Origin: Candidatus Latescibacterota bacterium
Lineage (GTDB): Bacteria; JAAXHH01; JACQVL01
Assembly (NCBI GenBank): GCA_016209865.1
Contig: JACQVL010000078.1
Span: 1 to 14,089, forward strand
Length of the DNA stretch: 14,089 nt
Direction: 5' to 3'
Part shown: piece by piece, positions 4,772 through 11,943 of the stretch
How the letters are laid out: every line of letters begins with the position of its first letter
Position numbering within the stretch: the first letter of the stretch is position 1
The notes under the pieces: model-generated
Seen by the model: only the letters and a program-made list of their open reading frames with translations
What the model was told of the DNA's origin: nothing
The model's database searches: none
Program-made: the position numbers and the translations under genes

Positions 4772-5332
4772 ATGCCCAAGACATTCACGCCGTCTCCGAC
4801 TGATCTCACGTATGAAGATTTTCTCACGTTACCGGACGACGGCAAACGGTATGAGATCTTAGACGGGGAGCTCCACGTGACACCCTCGCCGTTAACGACG
4901 CATCAACGCGCGGTAATGAATCTCGGCGCGCTCCTTCATCATCACGTTCGTCGAAACGGCTTAGGAGAGGTCTTCCTCGCCCCGCCCGACGTCATCCTGG
5001 CAGAGACGACCATCGTTGAGCCTGACCTGCTGTTTATCGCCAGGCAGCGCGCCAAGATCATCACACGGGCGAACATCCGGGGAGCGCCCGACCTGATCGT
5101 CGAAGTGCTCTCCCGACGCACCGCGCGGGTCGACCGGGGACGGAAGAAGAAGCTGTACGCACGGTACGGGGTACAGCACTACTGGCTGGTCGATCCTGAT
5201 ACGCGATCGGTCGAAGTGTATGCGTTAGAAAATGGGAAATACCGGCTCATCGGGCACTATACGGAGCACACCTCCTTCGAACCTTCCCTGTTTCCCGGTC
5301 TGACGATCTCGCTTGATGAGGTCTGGGATTGA
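4772..5332 (+). CDS. Uma2 family (DUF820) putative restriction endonuclease-like protein
   Basis: 186 residues, standard length for Uma2 proteins, a PD-(D/E)XK nuclease-fold family that is greatly expanded in cyanobacteria and several environmental phyla and whose biological role is largely unknown. Family motifs are in order: LTYEDFLTLPDDGKRYEILDG (12-32), EPDLLF with Asp85, LIVEVLS with Glu111, the Lys-rich KKKLYARYGV with Lys127 as likely catalytic Lys, HYWLVDP (136-142) and the C-terminal FPGLTISLDEVW. All nuclease-core residues appear intact. The ribosome-binding site is mediocre: AGGAAAGGA (4749-4757) is somewhat far from ATG 4772. No methyltransferase or toxin/antitoxin partner is adjacent; it sits between metabolic genes and may be a passenger. 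Confidence 0.9.
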   Translation: MPKTFTPSPTDLTYEDFLTLPDDGKRYEILDGELHVTPSPLTTHQRAVMNLGALLHHHVRRNGLGEVFLAPPDVILAETTIVEPDLLFIARQRAKIITRANIRGAPDLIVEVLSRRTARVDRGRKKKLYARYGVQHYWLVDPDTRSVEVYALENGKYRLIGHYTEHTSFEPSLFPGLTISLDEVWD

Positions 5333-5354
5333 CCACATTTGTTGATGGATGGGA

Positions 5355-5383
5355 GAGGCATTCGCAGAATGCTTCGCTCCTAC
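5355..5383. repeat. Palindromic intergenic element, copy A (between Uma2 and pncB)
   Basis: An 8-bp stem with one G-T pair (5355-5362 with 5368-5375) around the loop CGCAG, followed by CGCTCCTAC. Bases 5363-5383 match 9287-9307 at 19 of 21 positions, so it is a degenerate copy of the palindrome after the molybdoenzyme gene. It lies in the 63-nt gap just before the pncB start and has lost the left arm that makes copy B a perfect hairpin. Confidence 0.65.
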
Positions 5384-5395
5384 GCAGAGAAACCC

Positions 5396-6841
5396 ATGTC
5401 TCATCCCCGAATCTCTGCCCTCCTGACCGACTATTATTCGCTCACCATGGCGCAGGGGTACGACGCGCTCGGTCGAGGACAACAACGGGCGGTCTTTGAG
5501 TACGTCTTCCGCTCCCTGCCGCCCGATACCGGGTACGCCGTCTTCGCCGGACTCGACCCTCTGCTCGACGACTTCCAGTCGCTGTGTTTCGCGGAAGAAG
5601 ACTTCGCGTACCTGAAACAACTTCCGGGCATGATCCCGGCCTTTCTGGAGGGGCTGAAGACCTGGAGCTTCACCGGTCACGTCTGGGCGGCCCCTGAAGG
5701 CACAGTCGTCTTCCCCTACGAACCGGTGCTGCGTGTCGAAGCCACCCTCCCTGACGCCCAACTGATCGAAGGCCTCGTCTTAAATCGTCTCAACTACCAG
5801 ACGTTAGTGGCGACCAAGGCCGCGCGCGTCTGTGAGGCAGCGCAGGGCGACCCGGTGCTGGAGTTCGGGTTCCGCCGGGCGCACGGCCCCGACGGCGCGC
5901 TCTCCGGCTCCCGCGCGGCGTACATCGGCGGCTGCATCGCTACATCGTACATGGCGGCCGGCCTCCGGTACGGGATTCCCGTCCGGGGGACGATGGCCCA
6001 CAGTTGGGTGATGAGCTTTGCCTCCGAACTCGACGCGTTCCGGGCGTACGTCTCGGTCTCCCGCGACAACCCGATCCTGCTGGTTGATACCTACAGTACG
6101 AGACACTCGGGCATTCCGAACGCGGTGACCGTCTTCCAGGAACTCCGTACTCAAGGCTGGACGGGCCGGCCCGCCATCCGCTTAGATTCGGGCGACCTCA
6201 AACAACTCGCCGAATATGCCCGTGAGCGGTTTCTGGCCGCCCGACTGCCCGCCCCCCTGATCGTCGCCAGCGGCGACCTCGATGAAGACAGTATCCTGAG
6301 GCTGAAAAAGCAACACGCCCCGATCGAAGGCTGGGGCGTGGGGACGAAGCTCATCACGGGCGACCCACAGCCCTACTGGACGGGGGTCTACAAGCTGGCC
6401 GCCGTCCAGGAAGCGGGAGGCTGGCGGCCTCGGATTAAATCGTCGGATACCCCGGAGAAGACGACCGAGCCGGGGGTGAAGGAAGTGATCCGGTGGAGCG
6501 ATCACGCCGGTCGTCCGGCGGGCGATGTCATCTGTCTGGCCGACGAACTGGCCTCGTCGCAGACACCGGCCACTCGTGCGTGCCACCGCACCGACCGAAC
6601 GACGCAGCGGGTGTTCGACGGGATGGCCGGCATGCCGTTGACGAAGCCCGTCATGCGGGACGGCACACGCCTCTACCCGCCCATTCCGCTCGCTGATGTG
6701 CAGCGGCAGGTCCGCGCCAACCTCGACCGACTCGACCCGGCGCTCCGTCGGTTGACGTCGCCGTCGTCCTACTGGGTCGGGCTGAGCGAGCGGCTGAGTC
6801 AGTTGAAAGTGGAGATGCTCAGGCGCAGCAGTGACGAGTGA
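5396..6841 (+). CDS. pncB: Nicotinate phosphoribosyltransferase
   Basis: 481 residues. Makes nicotinate mononucleotide from nicotinate and PRPP with ATP coupling (EC 6.3.4.21), the entry step of Preiss-Handler NAD salvage. Signatures: LLTDYYSLTMAQGY (9-22), FEYVFRSLPPDTGYAVFAGL (34-53), EFGFRRAHG (156-164), GTMAHSW with His202 as the likely regulatory phospho-histidine, LLVDTYST (228-235), RLDSGDL (262-268), IVASGDLDE, and the phosphate-binding WGVGTKLITG (313-322) then VYKLAAV. An upstream TTG at 5339 would translate the intergenic palindrome into an extra 19 residues; ATG 5396 starts exactly where family homology starts, though its ribosome-binding site (CAGAGA) is weak. The stop codon falls inside a tandem heptamer repeat. 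The nicotinamidase-like gene follows 50 bases on and supplies its substrate. Confidence 0.95.
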   Translation: MSHPRISALLTDYYSLTMAQGYDALGRGQQRAVFEYVFRSLPPDTGYAVFAGLDPLLDDFQSLCFAEEDFAYLKQLPGMIPAFLEGLKTWSFTGHVWAAPEGTVVFPYEPVLRVEATLPDAQLIEGLVLNRLNYQTLVATKAARVCEAAQGDPVLEFGFRRAHGPDGALSGSRAAYIGGCIATSYMAAGLRYGIPVRGTMAHSWVMSFASELDAFRAYVSVSRDNPILLVDTYSTRHSGIPNAVTVFQELRTQGWTGRPAIRLDSGDLKQLAEYARERFLAARLPAPLIVASGDLDEDSILRLKKQHAPIEGWGVGTKLITGDPQPYWTGVYKLAAVQEAGGWRPRIKSSDTPEKTTEPGVKEVIRWSDHAGRPAGDVICLADELASSQTPATRACHRTDRTTQRVFDGMAGMPLTKPVMRDGTRLYPPIPLADVQRQVRANLDRLDPALRRLTSPSSYWVGLSERLSQLKVEMLRRSSDE

Positions 6842-6858
6842 CAAGTGACGAGTGACGA
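6831..6858 (+). repeat. Tandem heptanucleotide repeat spanning the pncB stop codon
   Basis: Four exact-register 7-nt units: GTGACGA, GTGACAA, GTGACGA, GTGACGA, then GG. Only one base differs among the units. The TGA stop of pncB (6839-6841) is inside the second unit, so the last three residues (SDE) are repeat-encoded. The form is that of short tandemly repeated repetitive (STRR) heptamers. No T run or ribosome-binding motif lies in it; the next gene's GGAG is at 6877-6880. Confidence 0.85.
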
Positions 6859-6891
6859 GGAAAACAGAACATAGCGGGAGAGTTGGTCACC

Positions 6892-7434
6892 ATGAATACC
6901 GTCATCATCGTCGATATGCTCAACGGGTTCTGCAAGGAGGGGGCGCTGGCCAGCCCGCGATTGGACTCGGTGACGCCCCACATCGTCCAGCTTCTCGACC
7001 GAGAGCAGGCGCGCGGCTCCCCGTTGATCTTCTTAGTCGATACTCACGAACCGGACGACGCGGAGTTCCAGATGTTCCCGCCGCACTGCGTCCGAGGGAC
7101 GCGCGAGAACAACATCATCGACGAGCTGAAGCCGTTCACGCAGCGTCCGAACGCGACAGTCATCCCGAAATCCCGGTATTCGGGGTTCTACCGGACGGAC
7201 CTGGAGAGCGTATTAGAACAGCAGAGGCCGGAACGGGTGATCGTCTGCGGGGTATGCACGGACATCTGCGTCCTCCATACGGTCGCCGACCTGCGGAACC
7301 GCAACTACCCGGTCGACGTCGTGCGGTCCTGCGTCGAGACGTACGACCTGCCGCCCGACCATCCGGCAGACCGGATGAATGAATTCGCCCTCACCCACAT
7401 GCGCGACATCCTGGGCGCGCGGGTCGTGGATTAA
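6892..7434 (+). CDS. pncA: Nicotinamidase-like cysteine hydrolase (isochorismatase superfamily)
   Basis: 180 residues. Probable nicotinamidase, converting nicotinamide to nicotinate, the substrate of the gene just upstream. The catalytic triad is present: Asp8 in IIVDMLNGFCKEG, Lys93 in IPKSRYSGF and nucleophile Cys126 in GVCTDICVLHT. Likely metal ligands are Asp50 and His52 in VDTHEPDD and His65 in FPPHCVRGT; the metal site distinguishes nicotinamidases from plain isochorismatases. The FPPHCVRGT/E motif is typical of nicotinamidases. ATG 6892 is chosen over an in-frame TTG at 6883 because GGAG (6877-6880) is 11 bases from the ATG but only 2 from the TTG. Another amidase of the superfamily is possible on sequence alone; adjacency to pncB makes nicotinamide the best guess. 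Confidence 0.88.
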   Translation: MNTVIIVDMLNGFCKEGALASPRLDSVTPHIVQLLDREQARGSPLIFLVDTHEPDDAEFQMFPPHCVRGTRENNIIDELKPFTQRPNATVIPKSRYSGFYRTDLESVLEQQRPERVIVCGVCTDICVLHTVADLRNRNYPVDVVRSCVETYDLPPDHPADRMNEFALTHMRDILGARVVD

Positions 7435-7464: not shown

Positions 7465-8235
7465 ATGCTCACGCCCGAACAGGCGGCGTTTTTCCAGACG
7501 TTCGGTTTTGTGACCCTGCGACAGGCATTCAGCCCGGATGAGATGGCCGAGGTGAGCCGGGAATTCGATGAGCTGGTCACGCAGGATCGACAGGGGCTCC
7601 CGTTCCCAGGGGAGAAGCGGCAGTCGCTGTACGGAATCGCCGAGAAAAGCCCGCTGATCACGCGCCTCGTCGACGATGACCGTTTCTACACCACCGTGGA
7701 ACACCTCCTGGGTCCCGGGTTTCTCTGGCTTTGCTCTGAAGGGAACCTCTACGTCGGGGACACTCCCTGGCATCCGGACGGCACCCGGCTGAACGCGATC
7801 CCGCTGAAGGTTTCGCTCTACCTCGACCCGCTCACGAAGGAGACCGGCTGCTTGCGCGTCCTCCCGGGGTCACACCGCCTGCCGTTGCACGAAGACATCA
7901 AGGCGCTCACGAAGCTGGGGATGGCGGGCGCGGACCTGCCGGGCGTCCCGTTCGAGTCCCAGCCGGGCGACGTCCTCTTCGCCAACATGAACCTCTGGCA
8001 CGCGGCGTTCGGGGGCCGGTCCGGCCGGCGACATCTCGCCATCAGTTTCTTCTCCGAACCGACCACGGATGAGCACCTCACGCTGCTGCGGGAGAATTAC
8101 GATGGCCTCCTGGTGTTCATCCAGCGGCTGCAGTACAGCCAGCCGGGCCGTGTCTTTACCGACGAGTTCCTCTACAGCGACCGTCCCCGCATCCGGCGCA
8201 TGGCCGCCAAATGGGTGGAGCTCGGACTGAGGTAG
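7465..8235 (+). CDS. Phytanoyl-CoA dioxygenase (PhyH) family protein
   Basis: 256 residues, a non-heme Fe(II)/2-oxoglutarate-dependent oxygenase of the PhyH type. The iron-binding facial triad is visible as His103-x-Asp105 in TPWHPDGT and His179 in MNLWHAAFGG; Arg188 or Arg189 in SGRRHLAISF is placed to bind 2-oxoglutarate. The N-terminus LTPEQAAFFQTFGFVTLRQAF and the mid-domain CLRVLPGSHR are typical of the family. Members hydroxylate many substrates (lipids, amino acids such as ectoine, alkaloids, phosphonates), so none is assigned. GAGGAG (7452-7457) precedes ATG 7465. The gene lies 30 bases after the nicotinamidase and 16 bases before the molybdoenzyme gene, which suggests the oxygenase and molybdoenzyme are co-expressed. 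Confidence 0.92.
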   Translation: MLTPEQAAFFQTFGFVTLRQAFSPDEMAEVSREFDELVTQDRQGLPFPGEKRQSLYGIAEKSPLITRLVDDDRFYTTVEHLLGPGFLWLCSEGNLYVGDTPWHPDGTRLNAIPLKVSLYLDPLTKETGCLRVLPGSHRLPLHEDIKALTKLGMAGADLPGVPFESQPGDVLFANMNLWHAAFGGRSGRRHLAISFFSEPTTDEHLTLLRENYDGLLVFIQRLQYSQPGRVFTDEFLYSDRPRIRRMAAKWVELGLR

Positions 8236-8251
8236 ACAGGAGGACGCCACG

Positions 8252-9283
8252 ATGTCGTCACTGCCCCCTGGACAGACCGAAACGCGCAAGTTCCCGACGA
8301 CCGGCGAGACGGCCCCGCTGGCGTCGATGTCGTTAGAGAATTGGCGGTTGATCGTGGAGGGCGTGGTGGACGCGCCGTTCACGTTGACCTACCCGGAATT
8401 CCTGACATTGCCGCAACGGACGCTCGTCATGGACGTGCATTGCGTCACCGGGTGGAGTCACTTAGGGATGGCGTTTGAGGGCCTCCCGCTCGCCGACCTG
8501 CTCGACCGGGCGCGGCCACAGCCGAACGCGCGGTTTGTGGAGTTCATCGCGTACTCGGCACGCGGCCACGATACCTCCCTCCCGCTTGACGTCGCCCGCG
8601 AGCAGTGCTGGCTCATCCACAGCGCGGACGGCGCGCCGCTGACACCGGCACACGGGTTCCCGCTCCGGGTGGTGACGCCCGGCAAGTACTTCTACAAAAG
8701 CCTCAAGTGGGTGCACCGGATCGTCCTCTTAGAACAGGAGACACTGGGGTTCTGGGAGCGGGAATCGGCGTACCACAACCACGCCGACCCCTGGAACGAG
8801 GAGCGATACGACGACCGCGCGCGCTTCTCGCGCGAGGCGACGCGGGCGTTCCGGCAACTGGAGACGTTCGATGCGTACCGTCAGGGCCGTCCGCAGGATG
8901 TCGTCCTCAAAGCAAACCTCTCGAACTGGACGCCCAGGACAAGGGACTTGCACGGCCTCCAGCTCAAATCGTGCAACTTCCGGGGCGCGGACCTGTCGCA
9001 CGCGAATCTCCGCGGGGCGAACCTCACGCGGAGCGTCTTTCGGGGCGCGAGTCTGCGGGACGCGGATTTGACGGGCGCAGACCTCGAAGGGGCGGATTTC
9101 TCCGGCGCGGACTTGACCGGCGCCCGGCTGGTCGATGCGGCGCTCTCGTCGACGACCTTCTTCCGGATCACTCAGAAAGGCGCGCAGATCAGCGCGATGG
9201 TCGACGGCATGATCGTGCGCGGCTGCTCGGGCCTCCTGGAGGCGCAAGAAGCCTTCCTGATGAGATTTGTAGAGGTGTTGTAG
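8252..9283 (+). CDS. Molybdopterin-dependent oxidoreductase (sulfite oxidase/MsrP fold) fused to pentapeptide repeats
   Basis: 343 residues in two parts. Residues 28-165 are an oxidoreductase molybdopterin-binding domain of the sulfite oxidase superfamily: WRLIVEGVVDAPFTLTYPEF, Mo-ligand Cys64 in MDVHCVTGWS, GLPLADLL, then PLRVVTPGKYFYKSLKWVHRI (about 137-157) and GFWERESAYHNHADPW (166-181). Residues about 221-298 are pentapeptide repeats of A(D/N)LxG type (NFRGADLSHANLRGANL ... ADLEGADFSGADLTGARL), which fold as a right-handed beta helix. There is no heme or dimerisation domain and no Tat or Sec signal peptide, so it is probably cytoplasmic, unlike MsrP. CAGGAGG (8237-8243) is 8 bases before ATG 8252. 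The TAG stop overlaps the left arm of a palindrome. Redox partner and substrate are unknown. Confidence 0.9.
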   Translation: MSSLPPGQTETRKFPTTGETAPLASMSLENWRLIVEGVVDAPFTLTYPEFLTLPQRTLVMDVHCVTGWSHLGMAFEGLPLADLLDRARPQPNARFVEFIAYSARGHDTSLPLDVAREQCWLIHSADGAPLTPAHGFPLRVVTPGKYFYKSLKWVHRIVLLEQETLGFWERESAYHNHADPWNEERYDDRARFSREATRAFRQLETFDAYRQGRPQDVVLKANLSNWTPRTRDLHGLQLKSCNFRGADLSHANLRGANLTRSVFRGASLRDADLTGADLEGADFSGADLTGARLVDAALSSTTFFRITQKGAQISAMVDGMIVRGCSGLLEAQEAFLMRFVEVL

Positions 9284-9307
9284 GGGCGCAGAATGCTGCG
9301 CCCCTAC
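9280..9307. repeat. Perfect palindrome at the convergent gene junction, copy B
   Basis: An 11-bp perfect inverted repeat (GTAGGGGCGCA, 9280-9290, with 9297-9307) around the loop GAATGC. The TAG stop of the molybdoenzyme gene is within the left arm, and the stop of the convergent MR/MLE gene is 26 bases beyond. It has no T tract on either side, so if it terminates it does so as a simple bidirectional hairpin. Bases 9287-9307 match 5363-5383 at 19 of 21 positions, marking it as a dispersed REP-like element rather than a one-off hairpin. Confidence 0.85.
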
Positions 9308-10548: not shown

Positions 10549-11943
10549 TCACCCGTTGAACCGGTTCAGGTCGGGTTTGTAGCTTCGGTATGGCTCGGGC
10601 AGACCGTTTTTGGCGACATCTTCCATCGCCTCACAGAAATACTCCAGTTCCGGCAGCGTCGTGTACAGATTCGGCGAGATTCGGAGCCAGAGCAGGGTTC
10701 TGCCCTCTTCATAATAGCCCCGGGAGGTCTGGATACGATGCTTCTCCCACAGGTAGTTGTGTAAGGCGGTCGGATCGACGCCGGCGATCCCGACGGAGGC
10801 GATCCCGCAGCTCATCTCCGGCGTCAGCGGCGTGTACAGTCGGATGGTGGGCACCGCCTGCAGCCGTTCCGCCCAGGCGTGCGTCAGGTACCGCAGCCGT
10901 TCTTCCTTCCGTTTTGCCCCGATCGCGTTGTGGAACGCGAGCGCCTCGCCGATGCCGAGATTCTGCGCCGACGACTGGATGCCGACGGATTCGTATTTCC
11001 GCATTCGATCGTTCCCTCGGCGCGGCGGGGGCGACATGATCGGCGGAATTTTCTCGATCTTATCCTTGCGGATATACAACATGCCGGTGCCTTTGGGCGC
11101 CAGGAGCCATTTGTGGAGGCTGGTGCCGAAATAGTCGCAATTGAGGTCCGCCAGTTTGAAGTCCAGATGACCGAACGAATGCGCGCCGTCAACGAGCACA
11201 TCAATCCCGCGCTGGTGCGCGAGGTCGCAGATGCGTTTGACCGGGAACACCTGGCCGGTGGTGTACGTGATGTGCGACAGCAGGATCAGGCGCGTCTTCG
11301 GCGTGATGCCGCGCTCGAACATCCCGACCAAGTCGTCCATCGACTTCGGCGGCGTGGGGACGTCGACTTTGGTCAGCGTAATGCCGTCACGTTGCTGTCG
11401 ATGTTCCAGCGTCGCCAGCATCGAGTCGTAGTCCTGCGTCGTGGTGAGGACTTCATCCTCCGGCTTGAGGGCAAACCCGTACAGGATGGTTCTGAGCGCT
11501 TCCGTGGCGTTGCGGGTGATGGCGATTTCATCCGGGTCGCAGCCGAACAGTCGGGCCAGGCCGGTACGGACGGTACCCATCCGGCTTCTGGCATCCCGGA
11601 GCCAGAGGCCGTAGGGGACCTCCTCCTGATCCCCGATGTACCGCGCGACCGCCTCGGAGACGACACGGGGCGTCGGACACGTAAACCCGTTATCCAGGTT
11701 GATGAGGCCGCGACTCATCGTGAATGCCTGCTGGACCGAACTCCAGAGCGACTCCTCGCGCGCTGCCTGTTGCGGGGTGAGTCCGACAGCGTTGCTCATC
11801 GCCGCCTCGACGCCCCGCAGCGTAGCCGGGCCGAGCAGCGCGGCCAGCCCGACGGCGCTGCCGACGGCTTTGAGAAACCCGCGTCGTTCCATCGTCGGCT
11901 GGGGTTCTATCCCGCCGGAGCGCGGGGCTTCGTGTGGTTGCAT
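10549..11943 (-). CDS. Tat-exported class V aminotransferase (isopenicillin-N-epimerase/cysteine-desulfurase-like)
   Basis: 464 residues. The N-terminus carries a twin-arginine signal: Arg20-Arg21 in ERRGFLKAVG then a hydrophobic stretch (about 27-38) and a plausible cleavage after GVEA (about 44-47). The rest is a fold-type I PLP enzyme: INLDNGFTCPTP (81-92), TRNATEALRTIL (143-154) binding the PLP phosphate, LLSHITYTTGQVFPV (221-235), VDGAHSFG with Asp252 and His255, and Schiff-base Lys278 in SLHKWLLAPKGTG. Relatives include isopenicillin N epimerase and selenocysteine lyase/cysteine desulfurases; the reaction here is not determinable. ATG 11943 is supported by AGGAGGT 5 bases upstream; an internal Met18 has no such site. 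It shares strand and short spacing with the MR/MLE gene and is 147 bases after the binding-protein gene. Confidence 0.9.
   Translation of the reverse strand: MQPHEAPRSGGIEPQPTMERRGFLKAVGSAVGLAALLGPATLRGVEAAMSNAVGLTPQQAAREESLWSSVQQAFTMSRGLINLDNGFTCPTPRVVSEAVARYIGDQEEVPYGLWLRDARSRMGTVRTGLARLFGCDPDEIAITRNATEALRTILYGFALKPEDEVLTTTQDYDSMLATLEHRQQRDGITLTKVDVPTPPKSMDDLVGMFERGITPKTRLILLSHITYTTGQVFPVKRICDLAHQRGIDVLVDGAHSFGHLDFKLADLNCDYFGTSLHKWLLAPKGTGMLYIRKDKIEKIPPIMSPPPRRGNDRMRKYESVGIQSSAQNLGIGEALAFHNAIGAKRKEERLRYLTHAWAERLQAVPTIRLYTPLTPEMSCGIASVGIAGVDPTALHNYLWEKHRIQTSRGYYEEGRTLLWLRISPNLYTTLPELEYFCEAMEDVAKNGLPEPYRSYKPDLNRFNG

Follow-up and report, generated by a model that had tools for sequence, protein, structure and literature searches.

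The C-terminal domains of sulfite oxidases (SO) serve in dimerisation, and Arg450 of the chicken enzyme and Arg374 of the plant enzyme both come from this domain. In chicken SO, the molybdenum (Mo) is bound by C185 and the cofactor phosphate by His283, Arg288 and Lys301, while Arg450 hydrogen-bonds the substrate (PMC5856855); in plant SO, Arg374 takes part in binding the substrate (PMC10574614). MsrP (YedY), a periplasmic protein-methionine-sulfoxide reductase, has the SUOX fold without the SO-type C-terminal domain. The enzymes of "group 3" of the sulfite oxidase family, which are annotated as "sulfite oxidase-like oxidoreductase", are single-subunit and cytoplasmic and end after about 200 aa without repeats. 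To our knowledge, no role has been assigned to group 3, and few roles have been assigned within the very large class of pentapeptide-repeat proteins.

The window analysed here is a stretch of 14,089 nucleotides from a Candidatus Latescibacterota bacterium (contig JACQVL010000078.1). An open frame with an ATG start runs without interruption on its plus strand from 8252 to 9283 and encodes 343 aa. On the minus strand of the same interval there are frames too, one of 222 aa and others shorter, which is to be expected opposite coding DNA rich in GC. As a preliminary description of this DNA had read, a Mo domain and pentapeptide repeats are joined in this single chain. Together, a contig scan and three genomes of the window's order yielded 76 non-redundant full-length homologues of about 320-366 aa with the same domain order. 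The features of the gene are:

8252..9283, plus strand: whole gene, fusion of a Mo domain and pentapeptide repeats, 343 aa (open frame with ATG; 76 full-length homologues)
8324..8755, plus strand: SUOX-fold molybdopterin domain, residues 25-168 (PF00174, E 7e-35; VIA-align Z about 15-21 against solved chains of the sulfite oxidase family)
8441..8443, plus strand: Cys64, predicted Mo ligand (identical in 76/76; aligns with the family Cys ligand, C185 of chicken SO)
8555..8578, plus strand: fusion-specific motif S102-x-R104-x-H106-D-T-S109 (in the fusions R104 74/76, H106 76/76 and S109 74/76; in stand-alone relatives mostly N/W/N)
8651..8707, plus strand: stretch with the cofactor-phosphate triad H134, R139 and K152 (R139 and K152 76/76, H134 72/76; spacing +5/+13)
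8771..8773, plus strand: Tyr174, probable equivalent of the catalytic Tyr322 (identical in 76/76; equivalence judged from spacing)
8807..8896, plus strand: linker, residues 186-215, with one helix at 194-201 (DSSP of the model; 22-33 residues in the fusion family)
8897..9166, plus strand: pentapeptide-repeat beta-helix of about 4.5 coils, residues 216-305 (PF00805, E 8e-25; VIA Z 17.9 to 2g0y; almost indel-free in 76 homologues)
8966..8968, plus strand: Lys239, predicted at the place of SO Arg450 (K/R in 76/76; alignments end with model 239/240 on SO 450/451)
9020..9028, plus strand: N257-L258-T259, on the same face one coil (20 aa) further (N257 76/76, S/T259 76/76; the plant SO alignment ends with 260 on 375)
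9080..9091, plus strand: D277-L278-E279-G280, on the same face two coils further (D277 75/76, E/D279 76/76, G280 76/76)
9167..9280, plus strand: C-terminal cap with helix 330-339 (structure model; L328 and Q332 each above 90%)

Both Pfam matches are far beyond chance (PF00174, residues 25-168, 120.5 bits against a cut-off of 24; PF00805, residues 241-280, 86.5 bits against 20.2), and no heme, SO-type dimerisation or other further domain was found by Pfam in the 343-aa chain. The N-terminus, MSSLPPGQTETRKFP, as read from the sequence, contains neither a hydrophobic nor a twin-arginine segment. These absences and the intact Cys64 ligand had been noted in the preliminary description, and its suggestion of a cytoplasmic Mo enzyme is consistent with this cytoplasmic-looking N-terminus. 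The description had also placed about 16 repeats at about 221-298; repeats were indeed found there, but the block is slightly longer, with about 18 repeats that start near residue 216 and reach 305, form 4.5 coils of 20 residues in the model and are followed by the cap. The PF00174 score above the gathering cut-off, the invariant C64, R139 and K152 and the nearly invariant H134 place the N-terminal part in the SUOX-fold superfamily, and the spacing of H134, R139 and K152 equals that of His283, Arg288 and Lys301 in chicken SO. The PF00805 score and the beta-helix of 20-residue coils likewise place the C-terminal part among the pentapeptide-repeat proteins. MoaA, which belongs to cofactor synthesis, is encoded in the same genome.

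The protein resembles SO, plant SO, SorA and SorT in the fold of the Mo domain, the cofactor-phosphate triad and the probable Tyr. It differs from SO, SorA and SorT in that a pentapeptide beta-helix is present instead of the C-terminal dimerisation domain, and in having no heme. In the model, the Arg of the C-terminal domain of these enzymes would be located where the fusion has residues of the pentapeptide solenoid. Chicken SO has three substrate Arg residues (138, 190 and 450); the 190 place is taken by Ser69, as judged by spacing from the Cys, and Lys239 stands at the 450 place in the alignments. Since the Arg190 position seems to be occupied by Ser69, canonical sulfite oxidation by the fusion is unlikely. 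MsrP structures (1xdq and 1xdy) were the best Foldseek hits, and MsrP and the fusion presumably both carry C-V-x-x-W-S around the Cys ligand. Unlike MsrP, the fusion carries a solenoid and has no Tat signal, and it scored 71.6 bits against the cut-off of 207 of the MsrP model. Neither msrQ nor a membrane cytochrome gene was found among its neighbours in the window. The solenoid has the same beta-helix fold as the Rfr/lumenal pentapeptide-repeat proteins (2g0y, 2f3l) and HetL (3du1), with Z of about 16-19, but it differs from these in being joined to a redox enzyme and in having one nearly invariant face.

The nearest relatives of the fusions are encoded by stand-alone Mo genes; they have about 200 aa, end after a GYHxxGDPWxEERF motif, lack repeats and apparently belong to group 3, which is cytoplasmic and uncharacterised. 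The fusion shares with group 3 the PPxQ N-terminal motif, the HCVTxW cysteine motif, YxxKSxKW and the GxWExxGYHxxxDPWxExR end motif, and a signal peptide and heme are apparently absent from both. Residues common to fusions and stand-alones are C64, V65, T66, W68, G77, H134, R139, Y146, K149, K152, W153, W168, E169, Y174 and R185. G18, E19, F98, S102, R104, H106, S109, F147 and Y148 were found in the fusions alone, and the differences from group 3 are consistent at positions 18, 19, 104, 106, 147 and 148. The added domain therefore comes with a re-shaped pocket. Judged by their sequences, the fusions share the family motifs of group 3, yet they form a separate clade with an extra domain.

The structure of the window protein was predicted by AlphaFold2 with a 64-sequence alignment (pLDDT 96.3, pTM 0.90), and a homologue from Mariniblastus, which is 38% identical to the window protein, gave a model with pLDDT 94.4 and pTM 0.88. 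With these values the domain arrangement is predicted with confidence; the two models are not fully independent, because their alignments are partly shared. In Foldseek and VIA-align comparisons, the N-terminal part matched MsrP, SorA, SoxC and the SO of plant and chicken with Z of about 15-22; matches to the C-terminal part were pentapeptide proteins such as 2g0y (Z 17.9-18.9). Many of the alignments to the SO family passed the Mo domain, resumed in the solenoid and ended at 239/240 or 259/260 (237/238 or 257/258 in the homologue), while several rows stopped at the Mo domain, short of the solenoid. The partners at these ends, as given by an aligner whose output is the first and last aligned residues, were 450/451 of chicken SO, 375 of plant SO, 426 of Pichia nitrate reductase, 366 of Thermus SO and 382/383 of SorT. 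For 3hc2, the last aligned pair was Arg237 of the homologue (Lys239 of the window protein) with SO 450. The domain placement and an Arg450-like position are supported by prediction; for the latter, the register leaves a choice between 239 and 259, which are one coil apart. The solenoid most likely replaces the C-terminal domain of sulfite oxidase as a wall of the active site, and to wall a catalytic centre is an unexpected job for such a rod.

Because one coil comprises 20 residues, positions 239, 259 and 279 stack, as do 257 and 277. The residues on this face are invariant or nearly so in the 76 homologues, as listed above. The mean entropy of the outward residues was 1.29 bits on the conserved face and 2.24 bits on the other three, with a permutation p of 0.0013 that is somewhat optimistic because the face was picked after the invariant residues had been seen. 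This comparison was computed without the structural alignments, and both point to the same face. Co-variation between the two domains mostly reflected clade structure.

On balance, we consider it somewhat more probable than not that the fusions are a single widespread family of Mo enzymes, probably cytoplasmic, in which the short group 3 sulfite oxidase fold is combined with a pentapeptide-repeat beta-helix folded over the catalytic opening, in place of the SO C-terminal domain. In such an enzyme, the Mo domain would bind its cofactor as usual, with Cys64 as the Mo ligand and the cofactor phosphate held by His134, Arg139 and Lys152. The beta-helix would fold back so that one of its four faces covers the catalytic opening, would occupy the place of the classical SO C-terminal "dimerisation" domain, and would give the basic Lys/Arg239 together with Asn257, Ser/Thr259, Asp277 and Glu279 to the active-site wall. 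The pocket may hold a small oxygen-transfer substrate with negative charge; a small anionic oxo-substrate is suggested because the pocket would be basic from Arg104, His106 and Lys239. We infer both that solenoid residues touch the substrate and what type of reaction is catalysed. A further step, which we advance tentatively and with slightly less than even confidence, is that the solenoid is a catalytic half-site that took over from the SO C-terminal domain and supplies a substrate-binding basic residue. The fusions would then be a further structural class of SO-family enzymes with a substrate of their own, and perhaps the first case of an enzyme whose active site is formed by a repeat rod of this kind.

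Other roles for the solenoid were weighed against the same evidence. The preliminary description had proposed a built-in scaffold or docking rod, that is, a projecting solenoid that recruits a redox partner or a protein substrate. Pentapeptide repeats are capable of a scaffold role, and with a chain that has no redox domain, and with no gene neighbour conserved across phyla among the fusion loci, a partner must come in trans. However, the compact domain placement is predicted with confidence, solenoid residues align onto an active-site segment of SO, reaching 239 and 259, and the conserved residues gather on the face that takes part in these alignments, the other three being variable, all of which makes a docking rod improbable. 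We also regard as doubtful a structural cap or dimer module, which would bury the Mo domain's open side and stabilise or dimerise the protein without a part in catalysis. The dimerisation role of SO C-terminal domains, the existence of stand-alone relatives without a solenoid and the conserved L328 and Q332 in the region of the C-terminal cap helix are consistent with such a module, but the invariant polar or charged residues K/R239, N257, D277 and E279 in a 20-residue ladder exceed the needs of packing, and the pocket signature is altered in the fused Mo domains. A DNA mimic of the Qnr/MfpA type, acting as a gyrase-associated or regulatory protein, is very improbable and was rejected on net charge and model scores: although the repeats are similar in sequence to the MfpA and Qnr models, the bits are far under the cut-offs (MfpA 41 against 360, Qnr 24 against 240), the repeat region is not strongly acidic (net charge +1 here, family median -2), and there are only 4.5 coils.

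The reading of a solenoid that walls the active site applies to a fusion with a wide distribution. Scanning genome contigs with the fusion as query gave 80 loci. Fusions were found in Planctomycetota, Verrucomicrobiota, Acidobacteriota, Chloroflexota, Pseudomonadota, Myxococcota, Actinomycetota, Calditrichota and Ca. Fraserbacteria, as well as in the group of the window, whose deposited relatives carry the labels Ca. Latescibacterota and Zixiibacteriota; this makes about ten phyla overall. The junction is constant among the 76 fusions: the domain order does not change, 22-33 residues link the two parts, and the repeats (216-303) are almost without indels. The domain partnership, which is unusual, as had been noted, is a genuine conserved fusion. 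An assembly join within 8870-8910, which the preliminary description had named as a possible source of error, is in effect excluded, because homologues from about ten phyla, and three genomes belonging to the order of the window, carry this junction too. Its other concern, that the two parts might be separate genes in relatives, was not borne out either, as no repeat gene was found within about 3 kb of the stand-alone Mo gene in 20 loci. An assembly or annotation artefact joining two genes deserves practically no weight: the window does come from a fragmented assembly of 356 contigs, but 76 homologues with an identical junction across about ten phyla already refute it.

In a tree built from the Mo domain only, a single branch (SH-aLRT 94) separated all 76 fusions from the other sequences, with one change of state. 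Because the 76 Mo domains form one clade, the fusion probably arose once; since the contigs were found with a fusion query and the stand-alone relatives came mostly from one family, this single origin holds for the sampled sequences. The fusion itself, the monophyly of those sampled and the invariant residues are established at the level of sequence. Among 199 genomes of the Planctomycetota family to which a Mariniblastus record belongs, searched with a profile and with ten candidates per genome scored, the fusion was found in 49 and the stand-alone Mo gene in 33. The two forms occurred together in only 1/199 genomes, against 8.1 expected if they were independent (hypergeometric p 0.0005, with kinship ignored). 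Strict mutual exclusion was rejected, as four genomes of other groups carry both. The fusion was present in the centre genome only of both the Verrucomicrobiota sample (194 genomes) and the Acidobacteriota sample (199 genomes), where the stand-alone form was found in 8 and 27 genomes, respectively. Some lineages thus carry the fusion commonly and others only sporadically, a patchy distribution that suggests horizontal spread. No full-length fusion was present among 231 plasmid records with a match.

Several observations concern the surroundings of the gene. A near-perfect palindrome at 9280-9307, GTAGGGGCGCAGAATGCTGCGCCCCTAC, overlaps the gene end and supplies its TAG stop codon. The form GTAGGGGCG...CGCCCCTAC occurs at 29 places in the genome and its reversed control at 0, and the palindrome therefore looks like a dispersed REP-like element. 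Between a PhyH-family gene (7465-8235) and the fusion downstream of it there are 16 bp. PhyH matches number 77 in this genome and about 136-154 in each of three relatives of the order, an extreme expansion. In these three relatives, too, the gene next upstream of the fusion is a PhyH gene, but its subfamily is a different one, and it is 22-27% similar to that of the window. PhyH was rejected as a conserved operon partner, given this distant similarity and genomes that hold 77 to about 150 PhyH genes. Further upstream, 5339-7434 encodes a nicotinate phosphoribosyltransferase and then an isochorismatase/nicotinamidase-like protein, likely an NAD salvage pair, and 4772-5332 encodes a putative nuclease of the Uma2 family (PF05685, E 3e-39). 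On the minus strand, 10549-11943 encodes a class V aminotransferase with a twin-arginine-like N-terminus (ERRGFLKAVG), which is unusual for a PLP enzyme. Within the fusion gene, the Mo domain (8312-8884, residues 21-211) was matched by phrog_26318 (an uncharacterised PHROG family, 334 aa; E 6e-15), hinting that some phage records may carry a SUOX-fold protein.

Domain-architecture databases probably list such fusion proteins; a published description was not found in the open-licence literature, which misses most subscription journals. The fusions are a widespread and apparently undescribed family of bacterial Mo enzymes. If the proposed role of the solenoid is true, pentapeptide repeats would gain a direct catalytic role, and a structural class would be added to a textbook molybdoenzyme family. 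The questions of what pentapeptide repeats do and what group 3 does would both become testable with one 343-aa protein.
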